A stretch of DNA of 34,105 nt. Origin: a virus. Where the stretch lies: positions 1-34,105 of IMG/VR virus record IMGVR_UViG_3300027833_001226. One strand, 5' to 3'. Below, one piece after another: positions 6,347-34,105 of this stretch. Each line of letters opens with the position of its first letter. Positions within the stretch are counted from its first letter, which is position 1. The position numbers and the translations under genes were made by a program. The notes beneath the pieces were generated by a model that worked only from the letters and a program-made list of their open reading frames with translations, ran no database searches and was not told where the DNA came from.

Positions 6347-7474
6347 ATGAGCGTTTTTGACTCAAACAACCGCGTCGACCATACTTCAGTTTCGTCTTTT
6401 CTAGACCCAACAGGTGGGCCAACAATTCAACGGTACGATACACTAAAATATAAGCAATTCGATCAGTTGACAGATAAGCAGTTGGGGTTCTTTTGGCGCC
6501 CTGAAGAAGTAGATATCTATCAAGATGCAAAAGACTTTAAGTCATTAACTGAACATGAACAACATATCTTTACTTCTAATTTGAAACGACAGATTTTGTT
6601 AGACAGTGTTCAAGGTCGTGCACCTGCAGAAGCGTTTGGTTCTATTGTTTCTTTGCCTGAGCTTGAGAACTGGATTATTACTTGGACATTTTCAGAAACA
6701 ATTCATAGTCGTTCTTACACTCATATTATTCGCAACATCTATTCAAATCCGTCTAAGATCTTTGATGAAATGCTTAACGTTAAAGAGATTGTAGATTGTG
6801 CAGATTCTATCTCAGGTTATTACGATGATTTAATTGAGATGGCAGGTTATTATAATCTTTTGGGTGTTGGTACACATACTGTTAATGGTAAGAAAGTTGT
6901 AGTAGATCTATATCAATTAAAGAAAATGTTATATCTCACACTGATGAGCGTTAACATTCTTGAAGGTGTTCGCTTCTATGTTTCGTTTGCATGCTCTTGG
7001 GCATTCGCTGAATTGAAGAAGATGGAAGGTAATGCTAAAATTATTAAGCTTATTGCTCGTGATGAAAACCTTCACCTTGCCTCTACTCAAATGATGCTAA
7101 AATTGCTTAAGCAAGAAGATAAAGACTTTGAGAAAATTGCACAAGAAACAGAAGCTGAATGTATTCAAATGTTTGTAGATGCAGTAGATCAAGAAAAAGA
7201 ATGGGCTAACTATCTGTTTAAAGATGGCTCAATGATTGGTCTTAATGCTGAATTGCTACATCAGTATATTGAGTTTATTGCTACTCGTCGTATGACTAAT
7301 GTAAAACTTCAATCACCATATAGCATTAAGAACAACCCGTTACCTTGGACACAAAAGTGGATCTCTGGAGCTGATGTGCAAGTTGCACCACAAGAAACAG
7401 AAATTACATCTTATGTACAAGGTGGAACAAAACAGGATGTTGATAAAAATACATTCACTGGATTCAGTCTGTGA
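6347..7474 (+). CDS. nrdB: Ribonucleoside-diphosphate reductase class Ia, beta subunit
   Basis: Di-iron, tyrosyl-radical subunit of the phage RNR. All metal ligands and the radical Tyr are present, each exactly two positions after its E. coli counterpart: Asp86 (QILLDS), Glu117 and His120 and Tyr124 (SETIHSRSY), Glu206 (NILEGV), Glu240 and His243 (RDENLH). It is therefore predicted to be an active class Ia beta subunit needing iron and oxygen. Length 375 is normal. AAAGGAA precedes the ATG. Its stop overlaps the next gene in the sequence TGATG (7472-7476), which ties ALA synthase translation to NrdB. Confidence 0.96.
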
Positions 7475-8661
7475 TGTACGATGAATACTTTGATCAAAAA
7501 ATAGAAGAATTTAAAGATGATGGTAGATACAGAGTATTCAATGATATTCTTAGAGAGCGGGGAGACTTTCCTCGCTCAATTTGGTATGGAAAGTACGCAC
7601 CAAAAAATATAGTTAACTGGTGTTCAAATGATTATCTTGGTATGGGACAAAACACACACGTAGTAAGTGCTATGCATAGTGCTTTAGACCAAACAGGATC
7701 TGGTTCTGGTGGTACTCGCAACATCGGTGGTAATACTCATTATCATGTCACATTAGAAAAAGAATTGGCTAACTTACATCAAAAACAATCTGCCTTATTA
7801 TTCACGAGTGCATATGTTGCTAATGAATGGTCTCTTATAGGATTAAGTAAAATTGTTCCTAATATTTGTTTTGTTTCTGATAGTAAAAATCATGCCTCAT
7901 TAATTGTTGGTATGTCACATAGTCGTGCTGCTAAAAAGGTCTTTGAACATAATAACCTAGATGATCTAGAAGTACAACTCAAGGCAGCAATAAAAGAAAA
8001 ACATATTCCTTGTATTGTATTTGAATCTGTTTATTCTATGGATGGCGATATCAGTCCAATGGAAGCTATATGTGATCTTGCAGATAAATATAACGCATTG
8101 ACATATATTGACGAAGTTCATGCTGTTGGTCTATACGGAGAAACAGGTGGTGGCTACTGCCAAAAGCTAGGCTTATCACATAGGGTAGATATTTTAAATG
8201 GCACACTCGGAAAAGCATTCGGGGTACAAGGCGGGTATGTTGTTGGGAATACTAATATTATTGATGCTATTAGGTGTGTTGCTAGTGGGTTTATATTCAC
8301 TACATCAACCAGTCCAGTCATTTGTGCTGGAGCCTTGGCATCCATCAGATATCTCCGTGACAATCCTGCCCTAAGAGAAGAGCACCAGAAAAAAGCAAAA
8401 CAATTAAAAGAAATGTTAATAGACGCAGATATACCAATACATGAAAACTCGTGTACTCATATCGTGCCTGTAATGGTTAACGACGCATTTAAATGCAAGG
8501 AAGCCAGTGATCGCCTTCTAAATGAGTTTGGGATTTATATACAACCTATAAATAGCCCGACAGTCCCGCAAGGTACTGAAAGATTGCGAATCGCACCAAC
8601 GCCGTATCATGATGAAGTTATGATGATACAATTAATTGAAGCGTTGAAGAAAATATTATAA
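7474..8661 (+). CDS. hemA: 5-aminolevulinate synthase (Shemin pathway)
   Basis: PLP enzyme that condenses glycine with succinyl-CoA to 5-aminolevulinate, the first step of haem and other tetrapyrroles in Alphaproteobacteria. The 395-residue product matches ALAS and not its relatives BioF or Kbl at the specificity segment GTRNIGG (Thr81-Arg82-Asn83, equivalent to Thr83-Asn85 of Rhodobacter ALAS). Other landmarks: RYRVF near the N-terminus, [18 protein letters not shown] (His140), YIDEVHAVG (Asp213, His216), the PLP lysine in GTLGKAFG (Lys247), and [11 protein letters not shown]. No Cys-Pro haem-regulatory motif is seen. ATG 7474 is chosen over GTG 7471, giving a TGATG overlap with nrdB; no strong ribosome site is visible, so translation probably depends on coupling. 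Phage hemA is rare; all catalytic residues look intact. Confidence 0.9.
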
Positions 8662-16261: not shown

Positions 16262-16580
16262 TTACAATCCTGATAAATGGTGCTTAATAAAAATAACTGG
16301 TACTGATCCTCATTACAGAGTGTTTGGCTCTTGGTCAGGCGGCTACTTAGATGGTGATTCGTGGCGTATGAATAGTGGTATCACTAGCGTCACTGAAGAC
16401 GATGATAAATACTATTTTAAGGGTTACTCTGGTTCAGTTTATGAATGTTATAAAGATATGTACGGTTCGACTGCGCATGGATATGGCGTAATTAAAAGTT
16501 ATTCTGATAAGACATATTCAGATCATTTTAATCTAATTGATGAACCTGAAAACATTATGGAAATGGATTGGATCATATGA
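16254..16580 (+). CDS. Unknown small phage protein (GTG start)
   Basis: A 108-residue product starting with GTG at 16254, with AGGA at 16242-16245 as ribosome site. It is rich in Tyr, Gly, Ser, Asp and Trp (FGSWSGGYLDGDSW, YYFKGYSGSVYECY), which suggests a beta-rich fold. No family recognised. The stop overlaps the sugar dehydrogenase start (ATGA at 16577). Confidence 0.6.
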   Translation: MTNYNPDKWCLIKITGTDPHYRVFGSWSGGYLDGDSWRMNSGITSVTEDDDKYYFKGYSGSVYECYKDMYGSTAHGYGVIKSYSDKTYSDHFNLIDEPENIMEMDWII

Positions 16581-17320
16581 GTATTCAAATTTTTGGTTAT
16601 GGGTTTGTTGGCAAAGCGCATGCATTAGCGTTTAGCCCAAACTATTCTATCTATGATCCAGCACTAGGTTATACAGAAATTGATGATGACGCTGATGCTG
16701 TAATCATTGCAGTATCCACACCTATCGAGCCTGTTCATAATGGCTGTGATATGGTCAACGTAATAGACGCAATATCAAAAGCACCATATGTACCAATTCT
16801 TATTAAGAGCACTATTAGTCTCGAAGGTTGGAGACAAATCAAAGTCCAATTCCCTGATAAAGATATTACTTTTTCGCCTGAATTTTTGAGAGCAGAATAT
16901 GCTATGGAAGATTTTAAGACACAAGAAGTGTGTTATGTTGGAGGTGATAATACTTTCTTTTGGAGTGACGTATTAACTACTCGCCTTGGAGTTAGAGTAG
17001 AGGTAGGTGAACCTGAAGCTTTGATTATTGCTAAATATATGCGTAATAGCTTTTTAGCCACTAAAGTTGCTTTCTTTAATCAAGTCTATGATTTATGCAA
17101 GAATCCAAACGTAGATGTTGATTACTCAGAGGTTTGCCACTTTATAACCGATGATTCTCGTATCGGCAACAGCCACACTTTTGTTACTGATGATCGCGGT
17201 TTTGGCGGACATTGTTTTCCAAAAGATGTAATGGCTATTATGGAAACAGCTTACGTATATGGGGACTACCTCTCTATTATAACTGAAGCTAAAAATTATA
17301 ATGATAGGATAAGAAAATGA
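16577..17320 (+). CDS. Short UDP-glucose/GDP-mannose dehydrogenase-like protein
   Basis: NAD-binding N-terminus (IFGYGFVGKAHA, residues 5-16), AVSTPIEP and KSTISLEG as in UDP-sugar dehydrogenases, FSPEFLRAEYAMED, and the catalytic-Cys motif GFGGHCFPKD (Cys213). At 247 residues it lacks the C-terminal UDP-binding domain of the usual 390-450-residue enzymes. It would oxidise a nucleotide sugar to a uronate if active, but without that domain the substrate may differ. ATG 16577 is preferred to TTG 16568 because of the ATGA overlap. It sits directly before a cytidylyltransferase (another ATGA overlap), so the two probably act on the same glycan pathway. Confidence 0.8.
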   Translation: MSIQIFGYGFVGKAHALAFSPNYSIYDPALGYTEIDDDADAVIIAVSTPIEPVHNGCDMVNVIDAISKAPYVPILIKSTISLEGWRQIKVQFPDKDITFSPEFLRAEYAMEDFKTQEVCYVGGDNTFFWSDVLTTRLGVRVEVGEPEALIIAKYMRNSFLATKVAFFNQVYDLCKNPNVDVDYSEVCHFITDDSRIGNSHTFVTDDRGFGGHCFPKDVMAIMETAYVYGDYLSIITEAKNYNDRIRK

Positions 17321-18319: not shown

Positions 18320-19020
18320 AATACATTTTTGACGTTGACGGCACACTAACACCGAGCCGTGGCATTGTTGATACAGAATTTAAAGCTTGGTTTGATTCTT
18401 TTTGTTTAACTAACGATGTGTATTTAGTTACAGGTAGTGATAAAGCAAAAACTGTTGAACAAATCGGCGAAGGAACATACAATCTTTGCAAAAGAGTTTA
18501 TCAGTGTTCTGGATCTGACGTATATGAAGGTGATAAGCAAGTGCATTGCTCTGATTGGGAAGCACCAGCTTCCTTAAAAACAATTCTTGATGGTTGGTTA
18601 ATCGGTAGTAAATTTCCTCTTAGAACAGGAAACCATCTTGAAGAAAGACCTGGAATGGTTAACTTCTCTATAGTAGGTAGAAATGCTACTGCACAAGAAC
18701 GTAGCGAATATGTTAAATGGGATAAGGCACAACGGGAACGTGAAACAATAGCATATGTAGTTAATCATTATTATGATGATATTACTGCTACAGTTGGTGG
18801 TGAAACAGGAATTGATATTCATCCTACTGGTGCAGATAAGAGTCAGATACTTAAAGATTTCGATTCAAAGGATAATATACAATTCTTTGGAGATGCTATC
18901 TTTGAAAGTGGTAATGATTGGTCTATAGCACAAGCTGTTAATAAACGTAATTATAATGACAAGTCGCATCGTGTTAAAGACTGGCGTGACACTTGGACTA
19001 AACTAAGGAAATTTGTATGA
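18316..19020 (+). CDS. Phosphomannomutase, eukaryotic (HAD) type
   Basis: A 234-residue HAD-superfamily protein. The nucleophile motif is FDVDGTLTPSR (Asp6 and Asp8). The cap segment GNHLEERPGMVNFSIVGRNATAQER, in pieces, matches the mannose-phosphate-binding cap of eukaryotic PMM (the RNGMLNVSPIGR pattern). The C-terminal core has GIDIHPTGADKSQIL and FFGDAIFESGND as metal motifs. It would interconvert mannose-6-phosphate and mannose-1-phosphate for GDP-mannose synthesis. This HAD-type PMM differs from the usual bacterial ManB family. It overlaps neighbours on both sides by ATGA. A sugar phosphatase of the same family is the alternative. Confidence 0.75.
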   Translation: MKYIFDVDGTLTPSRGIVDTEFKAWFDSFCLTNDVYLVTGSDKAKTVEQIGEGTYNLCKRVYQCSGSDVYEGDKQVHCSDWEAPASLKTILDGWLIGSKFPLRTGNHLEERPGMVNFSIVGRNATAQERSEYVKWDKAQRERETIAYVVNHYYDDITATVGGETGIDIHPTGADKSQILKDFDSKDNIQFFGDAIFESGNDWSIAQAVNKRNYNDKSHRVKDWRDTWTKLRKFV

Positions 19021-19556
19021 TTAAAGATAATATACCGGAAATAACATTTCTTGCAAGAGTAGGTGATATTGAACCGGAAAGTGGTGGATGTTCTGTTGGT
19101 GGCAATTGGCTTCCAATTAAAACAACTGAAATGTTCGAGAACAAACGTGTGCTAATATTCTCTTTACCTGGAGCGTTTACTCCAACCTGTTCTGTTGAAC
19201 AGCTTCCAGCGTTTGAAGAAAACTATGACGCAATTAAAGATATGGGTATTGATGAAATCTATGTATCATCAGTAAACGATGGCTTTGTAATGAATGCTTG
19301 GGCAGATAAGCTTGGCATTAAAAACGTTAAAGTAATCCCAGATGGTAATGGCTTATTCGCCGATGCTCTTGGAATGCTTATAGATTTAAGTGTTATTGGA
19401 TTTGGTAAAAGATCAAAAAGATTTGCTGCTGTAATTAATAATAATGAAATTGAAAAAATGTTTGTAGAACCAGATGGTACTCGTGAAAACCAAGATCCGT
19501 ATGGAGTATCAAGTCCTGGATCAGTTATGACTTATCTAGCGTCTAAGGCTATTTAA
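19017..19556 (+). CDS. Peroxiredoxin, Prx5-like
   Basis: A 179-residue product with the peroxidatic motif PGAFTPTC (Cys58) in the form typical of the Prx5 group. Downstream, SVNDGFVMNAWAD and a final GSVMTYL segment also match the group. It would reduce hydrogen or alkyl peroxides using a thiol donor; the phage glutaredoxin about 1.5 kb downstream is one candidate donor (Prx5-glutaredoxin pairing is known in bacteria). Extra Cys25 (SGGCSVGG) could be a resolving residue. It starts in an ATGA overlap with the phosphomannomutase and ends one base before the next gene. Confidence 0.85.
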   Translation: MIKDNIPEITFLARVGDIEPESGGCSVGGNWLPIKTTEMFENKRVLIFSLPGAFTPTCSVEQLPAFEENYDAIKDMGIDEIYVSSVNDGFVMNAWADKLGIKNVKVIPDGNGLFADALGMLIDLSVIGFGKRSKRFAAVINNNEIEKMFVEPDGTRENQDPYGVSSPGSVMTYLASKAI

Positions 19557-30720: not shown

Positions 30721-31035
30721 ATGTTTCCAATAACAAGACAATTTATGGATTTCCATATCGGCCACGCATGTATTGGTACAGGTACAGGCCACCCAAAACC
30801 GTTTCACAAAACACCTTATTATACTACACCACAGAACAAAGTACGTGTTGGTGGATTTAAGGCTATTGTAATTGGTGGTGGTACTGCATGTAAAGATATG
30901 GCAGTCGGTGGATCAGGGCGAGTAACTGCTGGTGGTATTCCTGTGCATCGAGCTACTGATGCAACAAGCGGACACCCTTGTCACTTTGTTCCAAATGCTT
31001 CTGCTGCGTCGTTTATATTTGTAAAGGCTGGATAA
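30721..31035 (+). CDS. PAAR-type spike-tip protein (T4 gp5.4-like)
   Basis: A 104-residue protein that would cap the central membrane-piercing spike of a contractile tail. It has the regular Gly-rich turns of PAAR proteins (KVRVGGFKAIVIGGGTAC, GGSGRVTAGGIPVHRATD) and His/Cys residues suited to metal binding near the tip (HIGHACIG, SGHPCHF). AAAGGA precedes the ATG. It confirms a contractile-tailed phage. Confidence 0.8.
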   Translation: MFPITRQFMDFHIGHACIGTGTGHPKPFHKTPYYTTPQNKVRVGGFKAIVIGGGTACKDMAVGGSGRVTAGGIPVHRATDATSGHPCHFVPNASAASFIFVKAG

Positions 31036-31036
31036 A

Positions 31037-31459
31037 ATGGCTAAGCCAGACTATGCGGCTCTGTTCGCTCAAATTGCGATTGAAACAGATCCCGTAGTCA
31101 AAGAACAACTGCGTTTACAAGCTTATGATTTCTCACCACCGGTACCATTACCAGCAGGAGAAACTATAGAAGACTACTTGTTAACTCCTCACGAAGAAGA
31201 ATTATTCGCATACACATATGACGATTATGTGGTAGATAATCCAGGATACGCAGAAGGAAACTACTCTACTTCTGGTTTATACGTTATGCCAGACTACGCC
31301 GAGTACGATTATATAAATATACAGTATCCTACTGCTGGTCTTTACGTTGCTTCAGGGTATACAGAAGAAGACTACATACAATTAACAGATACATCAATAG
31401 GTAGTGGATTTATTTCGTATGTTGGCGAATACTACAATGAATTAGGGGAAACGACGTAA
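31037..31459 (+). CDS. Tyr-rich repeat protein, probable tail component
   Basis: A 140-residue acidic product. The N-terminal 50 residues look helical. The rest holds a repeat with a period of 21 residues: TSGLYVMPDYAEYDYI (78-93) and TAGLYVASGYTEEDYI (99-114), with a weaker preceding copy around DDYVVDNPGYAEGNY. This repeat is built of Tyr, Gly and acids. It lies one base after the PAAR gene and its stop overlaps the fibre start by one base, so a structural role is likely. No family recognised. Confidence 0.6.
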   Translation: MAKPDYAALFAQIAIETDPVVKEQLRLQAYDFSPPVPLPAGETIEDYLLTPHEEELFAYTYDDYVVDNPGYAEGNYSTSGLYVMPDYAEYDYINIQYPTAGLYVASGYTEEDYIQLTDTSIGSGFISYVGEYYNELGETT

Positions 31460-34105
31460 TGTCAATAACAAAGCGTACCGACAAAGGCTCGGCATTAACT
31501 TACGATGAAATGGATGATAACTTTGATGCTATCGCACCACGGACTAGTGCAACAGGTTCAATTCAAATTCCTGCAGGAGATACTAACGCTCGAGACGCTA
31601 CTCCATCAGCAGGCTTTTTAAGATACAACACAAGTCTTAATTCTTTTGAAGGCTATCAAAACGGAGCTTGGGGTAATTTAGGTGCAGGTGGCGGAGGTGG
31701 TGGCGGCGACGTTAACCAAAACGCTTTTAGTATTTTCTCAGTTTCAGGTCAAACAAGTGTTTCAGCAGATTCAGCAACAGATACCGTAGAGTTCATTGCT
31801 GGTTCAAATATCACTCTTACAACAAATTCAGGAAGCGATAGTATTACTATTGCAGCATCTGGTTTAACACAAGATTTTGCATATTCAAGTTTAACAGATG
31901 TTCCGTCAAGTTTTCCTCCAAGCACACATAACCAAGCATGGTCTACAATCACAGGAACACCAACCACATTAGCAGGTTACGGTATTACTGATGGCGGTGG
32001 TGGCGGCGGTGTACAAGGATTTACTGGTATACAAGGTTTCACTGGTGGAGATGGAGATCCTGGTGCTCAAGGTACAAATGGTATCGGACTAAGCGGTAAC
32101 CAAGGTATTCAAGGTCCAGCAGGTGATGGTTCCGGCGGCGGTGGAGCTCAAGGATTCCAAGGTACTCAAGGATTCCAAGGAACAATTGGACAAACTGGTT
32201 TTGGATCAGATGGTGCTCAAGGTTTTCAGGGTTTACAAGGCGACGAAGGTCCAGAAGGAAATTCAGTTCAGGGAATTCAAGGACCTTCTGCTCCAGCTGG
32301 AGCGGTAGTTCAGGGTACTCAAGGTGTTCAAGGTTCGCTAGGATTTGACGGTCAGCCAGGATTCCAAGGCATGCAGGGTTTAGATGCTGCAGGCGCCCAA
32401 GGTGTTCAAGGTCCTAATGGACCAGCAGGATTTGGTTTACAAGGACATCAGGGTATCCAAGGTGATCTTGGTCCTGAAGGTCCTGAAGGTGAAGGTGCTC
32501 AAGGTATTCAAGGTACTGATGGTTTCCAAGGACTTATCGGCGGTGATGGTGGCGATGGGCCAGACGGTCTTCAAGGTCTGCAAGGACCAGCCGGTTCTGT
32601 TCAAGGTTTACAAGGTACGATTGGTGTAGGCGACACGGGTGCTCAAGGTATTCAAGGCAGCGTTCTTCAAGGTACAATTGGTACTGACGGTGCTCAAGGT
32701 ATTCAAGGTTTACTTGGTACCGGTGTTCAAGGTCTTCAAGGAGAAGCTGTTCCAGGACCTAACGGTTTACAAGGTGCTACCGGTATTCAAGGTCTTGGTG
32801 GTGATGAAGGTATTCAAGGTACAGGCGGCGTAAGTATCCAAGGTATCCAAGGGACTCAAGGCATAATTGGAGAAACTGGTACTCAAGGCACACAAGGTAT
32901 TCAAGGTTTACAAAGTGTTCAAGGACTGCAAGGACTCCAAGGAGAAATATTACAAGGTGTTCAAGGTTCAGAAGGTACTATTGGACTGCAAGGTGTTCAA
33001 GGTAACCAATCTACACAAGGTATTCAAGGCAACGCCGGAATAGGTATTCAAGGACCGTCCGACGGTGTTCAAGGTTTGCAAGGTACGACTGGTGACGCTG
33101 GTGTTCAAGGACCGTCTGATGGACAAACGGGTGCACAAGGCTTATTAGGACCACAAGGTATTCAAGGTCTTACTGCTCAAGGTGTTAACGGTGTACAAGG
33201 TTTCGTCGGAATTCAAGGACCATCAGATGGTGCAGACGGAATACAAGGTACTACAGGTATTCAAGGCTCGCAAGGAACTCAAGGTTTAACTGGGGCAGGT
33301 GTTCAAGGTGCGACTGGTGACACTGGTGTTCAAGGACCTGCTGACGGACCACAAGGTACACAGGGTGTTATTGGTACTGCAGTTCAGGGTATTCAGGGTT
33401 CAACCGATGGACCTATTGGACCACAAGGTACACAAGGTGTTCTTGGTTTACAAGGTTTAACTGGATCAACCGGTCTTCAAGGTGTCCAAGGTTTAACTGG
33501 ATCAACTGGCCTTCAAGGTATTCAGGGTGTTCAAGGGATGCAAGGTCTCGATGGACCAGAAGGTAAACGTTCATTTGTTGTAGAAGCTAATGGTTCAACT
33601 GATTACGTAATTGATGGTGTAAATGATCCAACTATTAACCTTATTCGTGGATTTACTTATGCATTTAATGTAGCAGCAAATGGTCACCCATTTGAAATCA
33701 GAGCATCTAACGGTGGATCTGCTTATAATACAGGTGTAATTAATAACGCTGCACAACTTGGTACAGTCTTATTTACAGTGCCATATAACGCTCCTGCAAC
33801 TCTCTATTATCAATGTACTGTGCATTCGAATATGGGTGGAGTTATTAATACTTCTGATCTTGGACCAATTGGTTTAACAGGTCTTCAAGGTTTGCAAGGT
33901 GTCCAAGGTTTACAATCCGTGCAAGGTTTGCAAGGTTTGCAAGGTACAACGAGTCCGAATCCACTGTTTGCTGCTAACGAAGATACTCCTACTGCTCAAC
34001 CTGTAGCAACGGGTTCAAACGCAATTGCGCTAGGCGACTCATCAGATGCTTCGGGTGCTGACTCACTTTCGTTTGGTAGAGATTCAACAGCAAGCGGAGC
34101 TGACT
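31459..34105 (+). CDS. Collagen-like tail fibre with embedded cupredoxin-like domain (partial)
   Basis: The first 882 residues of a fibre that continues past the window. The N-terminus [22 protein letters not shown] is the typical attachment start of marine T4-like fibres. About 110-170 include a Gly-rich hinge and a [12 protein letters not shown] segment. Residues about 185-702 are collagen-like Gly-X-Gln/X-X triplets (GIQGVQGLQG style) broken by short interruptions. Residues about 703-800 form a compact beta domain with H743, C786, H789 and M792. A short second collagen stretch follows (about 805-833), then YadA-head-like repeats ([18 protein letters not shown]). AAACGACG precedes the ATG, which overlaps the upstream stop (TAATG). 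Host receptor binding is expected in the unseen C-terminus. Confidence 0.88.
32020..33564 (+). repeat. Collagen-like coding repeat
   Basis: About 1.5 kb of tandemly degenerate 9-18-base units, mostly variants of GGTATTCAAGGT, coding Gly-X-X triplets unusually rich in Gln. Trimeric triple-helix formation is expected. Alternative-frame open stretches here are by-products of the repeat. Confidence 0.9.
33451..33519 (+). repeat. Tandem 36-base duplication in the fibre gene
   Basis: The 33-base unit at 33451-33483 recurs at 33487-33519 with only two differences (C/T and T/C, both silent), coding [11 protein letters not shown] twice. This looks like a recent slippage or recombination event. Confidence 0.85.
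33565..33858 (+). other. Cupredoxin-like domain inside the fibre
   Basis: Residues about 703-800 of the fibre interrupt the collagen repeat. The sequence ends with [15 protein letters not shown]: Cys786, His789 and Met792 in C-x2-H-x2-M spacing, the same as in amicyanin, with an upstream His743 in NGHPFEIR. These are the four ligands of a type 1 copper site. Strands [34 protein letters not shown] fit a Greek-key barrel. Copper binding is inferred from ligand spacing only. Confidence 0.65.

Follow-up and report, generated by a model that had tools for sequence, protein, structure and literature searches.

Background

Amicyanin (1aac) and plastocyanin (1plc) are proteins of the cupredoxin fold that work as free electron carriers of the periplasm or the lumen. 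In trimeric fibres, T4 gp37 and the R-pyocins carry buried iron bound by HxH motifs, for which a role in folding and stiffness was proposed (PMC6116203), and an iron-based Trojan-horse mechanism was proposed for phage tail fibres with HxH motifs (PMC11705849). Two groups of cyanophage tail proteins bear a domain comparable to the one described here. The proteins of phrog_677, for example YP_009133416.1 of Synechococcus phage ACG-2014d, have it at their C-terminus and carry the annotation 'baseplate wedge tail fiber protein connector', without mention of copper. The fibre AAX44406.1 of Prochlorococcus phage P-SSM2 has it between two collagen stretches.

The window analyzed in this work is a linear record of 34,105 bases from a marine virus, whose last gene encodes a collagen-like tail fibre with a predicted cupredoxin domain. 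The predicted fold resembles those of amicyanin and plastocyanin at about 18% identity, but the domain is part of a fibre and not a free carrier. In T4 gp37 and the R-pyocins the iron is held on the axis by His from three chains, whereas in the window a single chain gives the Cys, the two His and the Met. The HxH motif is absent from the fibre, as checked for all four of its His (157, 330, 743 and 789). The phrog_677 proteins contain the same domain, with the four ligands identical in the members read; there it ends a short gp9/10-like baseplate protein, while in the window it interrupts the collagen shaft. The P-SSM2 fibre shares the order collagen, HCHM domain, collagen, and its domain is 49% identical to that of the window, although the flanks differ.

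Organization of the fibre gene

The features of the fibre gene are as follows.

31459-34104, plus strand: collagen-like tail fibre gene, last of the window, 882 residues; open frame with no stop, the 3' end lying past the contig
31459-32010, plus strand: N-terminal non-collagen region, residues 1-184, from the sequence
32011-33564, plus strand: Gly-X-Y collagen-like stretch, mostly G-X-Q, residues 185-702, with short irregularities; from the sequence and PF01391
33565-33858, plus strand: predicted cupredoxin domain, residues 703-800, 98 residues; from AlphaFold2, PDB fold matches and phrog_677
33685-33687, plus strand: CAC codon of His743, the most upstream of the putative metal ligands; read directly, invariant in Cys-bearing homologues
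33814-33816, plus strand: TGT codon of Cys786, putative ligand; read directly
33823-33825, plus strand: CAT codon of His789, putative ligand; read directly
33832-33834, plus strand: ATG codon of Met792, putative axial ligand; read directly
33859-33957, plus strand: collagen repeat restarting past the cupredoxin domain, after residue 801; from the sequence
34006-34083, plus strand: YadA-head-like repeat, residues 850-875, at the incomplete end of the fibre; PF05658, E 0.0027, under its cut-off

Among the PHROGs, the frame matches phrog_5073 (tail fiber, E 6.4e-59) as well as several further tail-fibre groups; it also matches the Pfam collagen family PF01391 (E 1.1e-33). Residues 28-89 give weak matches to phrog_25721 and phrog_2803, and residues 1-184 are likely the end attached to the virion. 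A sequence-only reading of this DNA had described a beta domain of about 98 residues breaking the collagen repeat, and this description holds: residues 703-800 are non-collagen, with triplets on both sides.

Two genes upstream of the fibre there is a 104-aa gene (30721-31035) that reaches 21.4 bits against the PAAR family PF05488, whose cut-off is 27; its product is possibly a tail-tip spike protein. Immediately before the fibre, a tyrosine-rich protein of 140 aa has no family match (31037-31459). A UDP-glucose dehydrogenase-like gene, an aminotransferase gene and a peroxiredoxin-like gene are also present in the window (16568-17320, 7471-8661 and 19017-19556, respectively).

The four putative ligands, claimed earlier from the sequence with a spacing as in amicyanin, were confirmed from the codons. 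Within the domain the spacing is C-x2-H-x2-M, His743 lies 43 residues upstream of Cys786, and Cys786 is the only Cys among the 882 residues of the fibre. The loop CTVHSNM corresponds to CTPHPFM of amicyanin, C-x2-H-x2-M in both, and differs from the plastocyanin loop C-x2-H-x4-M. A chance motif was ruled out, since all four residues recur with the same domain in hundreds of records. Judged by its residues, the ligand set and its spacing match those of type 1 copper, and copper would be the metal. We infer a blue colour and a function for the putative site.

Comparison with copper proteins and predicted fold

The domain of the window has no match among the Pfam copper-protein families at E below 1. 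Seven of the 63 members of its family match the plastocyanin/azurin family PF00127 (copper-bind; best E 1.1e-4), and the halocyanin model TIGR03102 is matched within the family at 4.2e-4. The NCBIfam amicyanin model TIGR02657 does not match the domain of the window at E 0.1, the best value for another member being 0.0088, and no copper protein reached significance when the PDB was searched by sequence with this domain (E 0.15 for the best cupredoxin). Weak matches to PF25489 (At5g54830-like) occur in 32 of the 63 members (best E 6.1e-6); with the domain of the window the E value is 0.14, under the curated cut-off, and PF25489 is probably a distant cellular relative. Matches to PF01353 (GFP) and Asp3 were weak and were judged to be chance.

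Profile-profile comparison was made against amicyanin plus plastocyanin, whose sequences a search identified as those of 1aac and 1plc. It gave an E value of 4.3e-5 and aligned the Cys-x2-His-x2-Met loop with theirs. The upstream His lies two positions off the cupredoxin His in the profile alignments, a shift also seen in the plastocyanin alignment; moving a gap by one residue would bring it into register. Capture of a host plastocyanin as an auxiliary gene is disfavoured, because the domain is part of tail proteins and matches to copper families are below cut-off or absent.

Structure prediction and comparison with cupredoxins had been proposed together with the first reading, and the predicted fold is that of a cupredoxin. 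The AlphaFold2 model, built from a 63-row alignment of the domain and comprising 106 residues, is all beta (mean pLDDT 93.6, pTM 0.86). The top Foldseek matches in the PDB are cupredoxins, with E values of 3.9e-5 and weaker. The best VIA-align match is the N-terminal cupredoxin domain of the nitrite reductase of Hyphomicrobium (2dv6; Z 11.3, 2.1 A over 92 residues), and rusticyanin (2cal) scores Z 10.4. These two are the nearest solved folds among those listed; both are redox proteins and have 18-20% identity to the domain. The best 50 PDB chains listed are all cupredoxins or multicopper oxidases. The model thus supports placing the domain in the cupredoxin fold superfamily, as a predicted Greek-key beta-sandwich. 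In a library of viral structures, predicted 'beta-sandwich proteins' from Pithovirus- and Marseillevirus-like records also match this fold, at E about 1e-7 to 1e-8.

Conservation and loss of the ligand set

Conservation was analyzed in 133 distinct full-length domains, which form 59 clusters below 70% identity. The Cys is present in 48 of the 59 clusters, a share inflated by the scan of viral contigs, whose pattern included the Cys; the co-occurrence of the other three ligands is unaffected, and both His and the Met accompany the Cys in 48/48. Apart from the four columns of the ligands, no column is invariant in these Cys-bearing clusters. In the 11 clusters without the Cys, the second His is never found, the first His occurs in two, the Met in five, and both His together in none. 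These members retain the other conserved core positions (Gly, Tyr, Phe, Pro, Tyr and Gly), and a homologue without the Cys is still predicted as a cupredoxin (AlphaFold2 pLDDT 92.9; Z 11.0 to rusticyanin), which indicates that the fold is useful without metal.

The state of the ligand set was followed on a tree of 87 rows and 96 columns from which the ligand columns were excluded and in which the direction of change was not inferred. Five changes are required (5-6 in bootstraps), compared with 10.6 for shuffled labels, and well-supported branches force at least two of them. Both states also occur together in one frame of a 207-kb viral record (L201, G003:C1:188000-192000), where the copy at residues 484-585 has all four ligands and the copy at 803-904 reads YNNM.

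The first reading proposed to test whether the four ligands are conserved among homologues and named as its refutation a fold kept with the set lost. All four are indeed found in 48 of the 59 clusters, and such a loss is seen in the other 11, but there the site disappears as a unit. A generic beta-sandwich for adhesion or spacing, with ligand residues that are inherited relics, would account for those 11 clusters, where the fold is kept without the site. Decay of a relic, however, should proceed one residue at a time, while Cys-bearing members never miss the other three ligands, no member without the Cys has both His, and the ligand columns alone are invariant among the Cys-bearing members; we regard a relic as very improbable. 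A site that is either complete or gone as a unit is what would be expected of a working metal centre. The pattern is the one expected of a site that functions and can at times be given up.

Distribution in phages and bacteria

A copper centre on a phage fibre had been called unusual, but the domain is no rarity of one fibre: it is frequent among the tail proteins of cyanophages and is also found in some secreted bacterial proteins. A tblastn search against annotated phages retrieved 375 records at E 0.01, chiefly Synechococcus and Prochlorococcus phages, many of them with the annotation 'baseplate wedge tail fibre connector'. The domain of the window matches phrog_677 with an E value of 6.1e-31 over profile positions 308-409 of 412, the C-terminal region. 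In the ACG-2014d protein it follows a T4 gp9/10-like N-terminus (PF07880, E 4e-7) and forms the C-terminus, and in ACG-2014e it adjoins a subtilase domain. It is present too in the podophage P-SCSP2 and in an uncultured Fussvirus. One pattern scan of viral contigs gave at least 600 candidate stretches. Among the distinct HCHM-bearing frames in the loci read, many of which are truncated, 37 of 112 have a Gly-X-Y run of six or more triplets.

In bacteria the domain is rare: it was found in 3 of 190 genomes of the alphaproteobacterial sample and in 3 of 100 of the Marinimicrobia sample, part of which is probably misbinned virus. The Marinimicrobia matches on contig C57 (L061 and L217) were not counted as cellular evidence because they look like viral sequence that was placed in a metagenome assembly by binning. 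The bacterial carriers appear to be secreted and contain CHRD, fn3 or subtilase segments. One has an apparent signal peptide and the domain together with four CHRD domains (L213), and another an apparent signal peptide, the domain, fn3 and a secretion tail (L212). In an alphaproteobacterial contig (L062), the domain lies in a frame of 4923 aa with subtilase and calcium-repeat-like segments, and cobalamin-type genes are adjacent.

The occurrence of same-family domains in secreted bacterial proteins, and a ligand set held as a unit despite high divergence, would suit a redox or copper-handling unit that captures scarce seawater copper or presents copper to a surface system of the host; the Trojan-horse proposal for HxH fibres (PMC11705849) is its iron counterpart. 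However, this fibre has no such motif, neither a copper gene nor a partner for electron transfer was seen among the genes examined in the window, the domain is placed within a long shaft, and several lineages keep the domain and lose the metal site. We consider a redox or copper-handling role unlikely.

Proposed role of the domain

The domain, its fold class, its ligand set, the conservation of that set as a unit and its modular spread are results of computation. The proteins that contain the domain belong to the tail or are exported, namely gp9/10-like baseplate proteins, fibres, subtilases, and secreted CHRD and fn3 proteins. The explanation that we favour, to which we give about an even chance, is that a metal-site cupredoxin in the collagen shaft of a trimeric fibre serves as a stable knob for adhesion or spacing. 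A cupredoxin with an intact type-1-like site would be inserted in the shaft, each chain of the trimer projecting a compact beta-sandwich. Synthesized in the host cytosol as the apo form, the domain may acquire its copper when the cell lyses or afterwards. This metal would lock the fold and the exposed His loop and could thereby yield a stable adhesion or spacer knob, which some lineages would retain while dropping the metal. The buried iron in the trimeric fibres of T4 gp37 and the R-pyocins (PMC6116203) is a precedent. The persistence of relatives that have only the fold indicates that the domain has a use besides metal, most simply as a block for building and binding in proteins of the tail and the surface, to which the metal would add stability.

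The place of synthesis also bears on which metal would be bound. Free copper is scarce in the cytosol, where phage proteins are made, and zinc can occupy cupredoxin sites, so the same four residues might hold zinc or another cytosolic metal in a purely structural site. Against this, an axial Met and the C-x2-H-x2-M spacing are the set of type 1 copper proteins, and homologues are found in exported bacterial proteins; a purely structural site with zinc or another cytosolic metal seems distinctly improbable to us.

Significance

Within the part of the open-access literature that was covered, a cupredoxin or plastocyanin-like domain was not found described for phage, virion or cyanophage, which is weak evidence. 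The fold is well known; its use in phage tails is apparently undescribed in the literature searched, although domain databases may already flag some cases. In the literature found, copper is apparently unreported so far as a metal of phage fibres.

Beyond the adhesion or spacer knob, the fibres and baseplates of many ocean phages might bear working blue-copper centres, in multiple copies per virion, with copper obtained from seawater or from the host as it lyses, and used for attachment or for a redox-triggered change. We hold this to be a speculative and rather unlikely proposal; if true, copper would be a cofactor of marine phage infection.

Copper probably matters for how the hundreds of ocean viruses that bear this domain build or use their tails. 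The present results give a hint of function for a very common, unannotated domain of cyanophage tail proteins, and domains with and without the ligands form hundreds of natural pairs that are available for probing the role of the metal. Should copper be bound at the site, metalloprotein tails would be a feature of a large group of abundant ocean phages, and phage infection would be tied to the copper chemistry of the sea.
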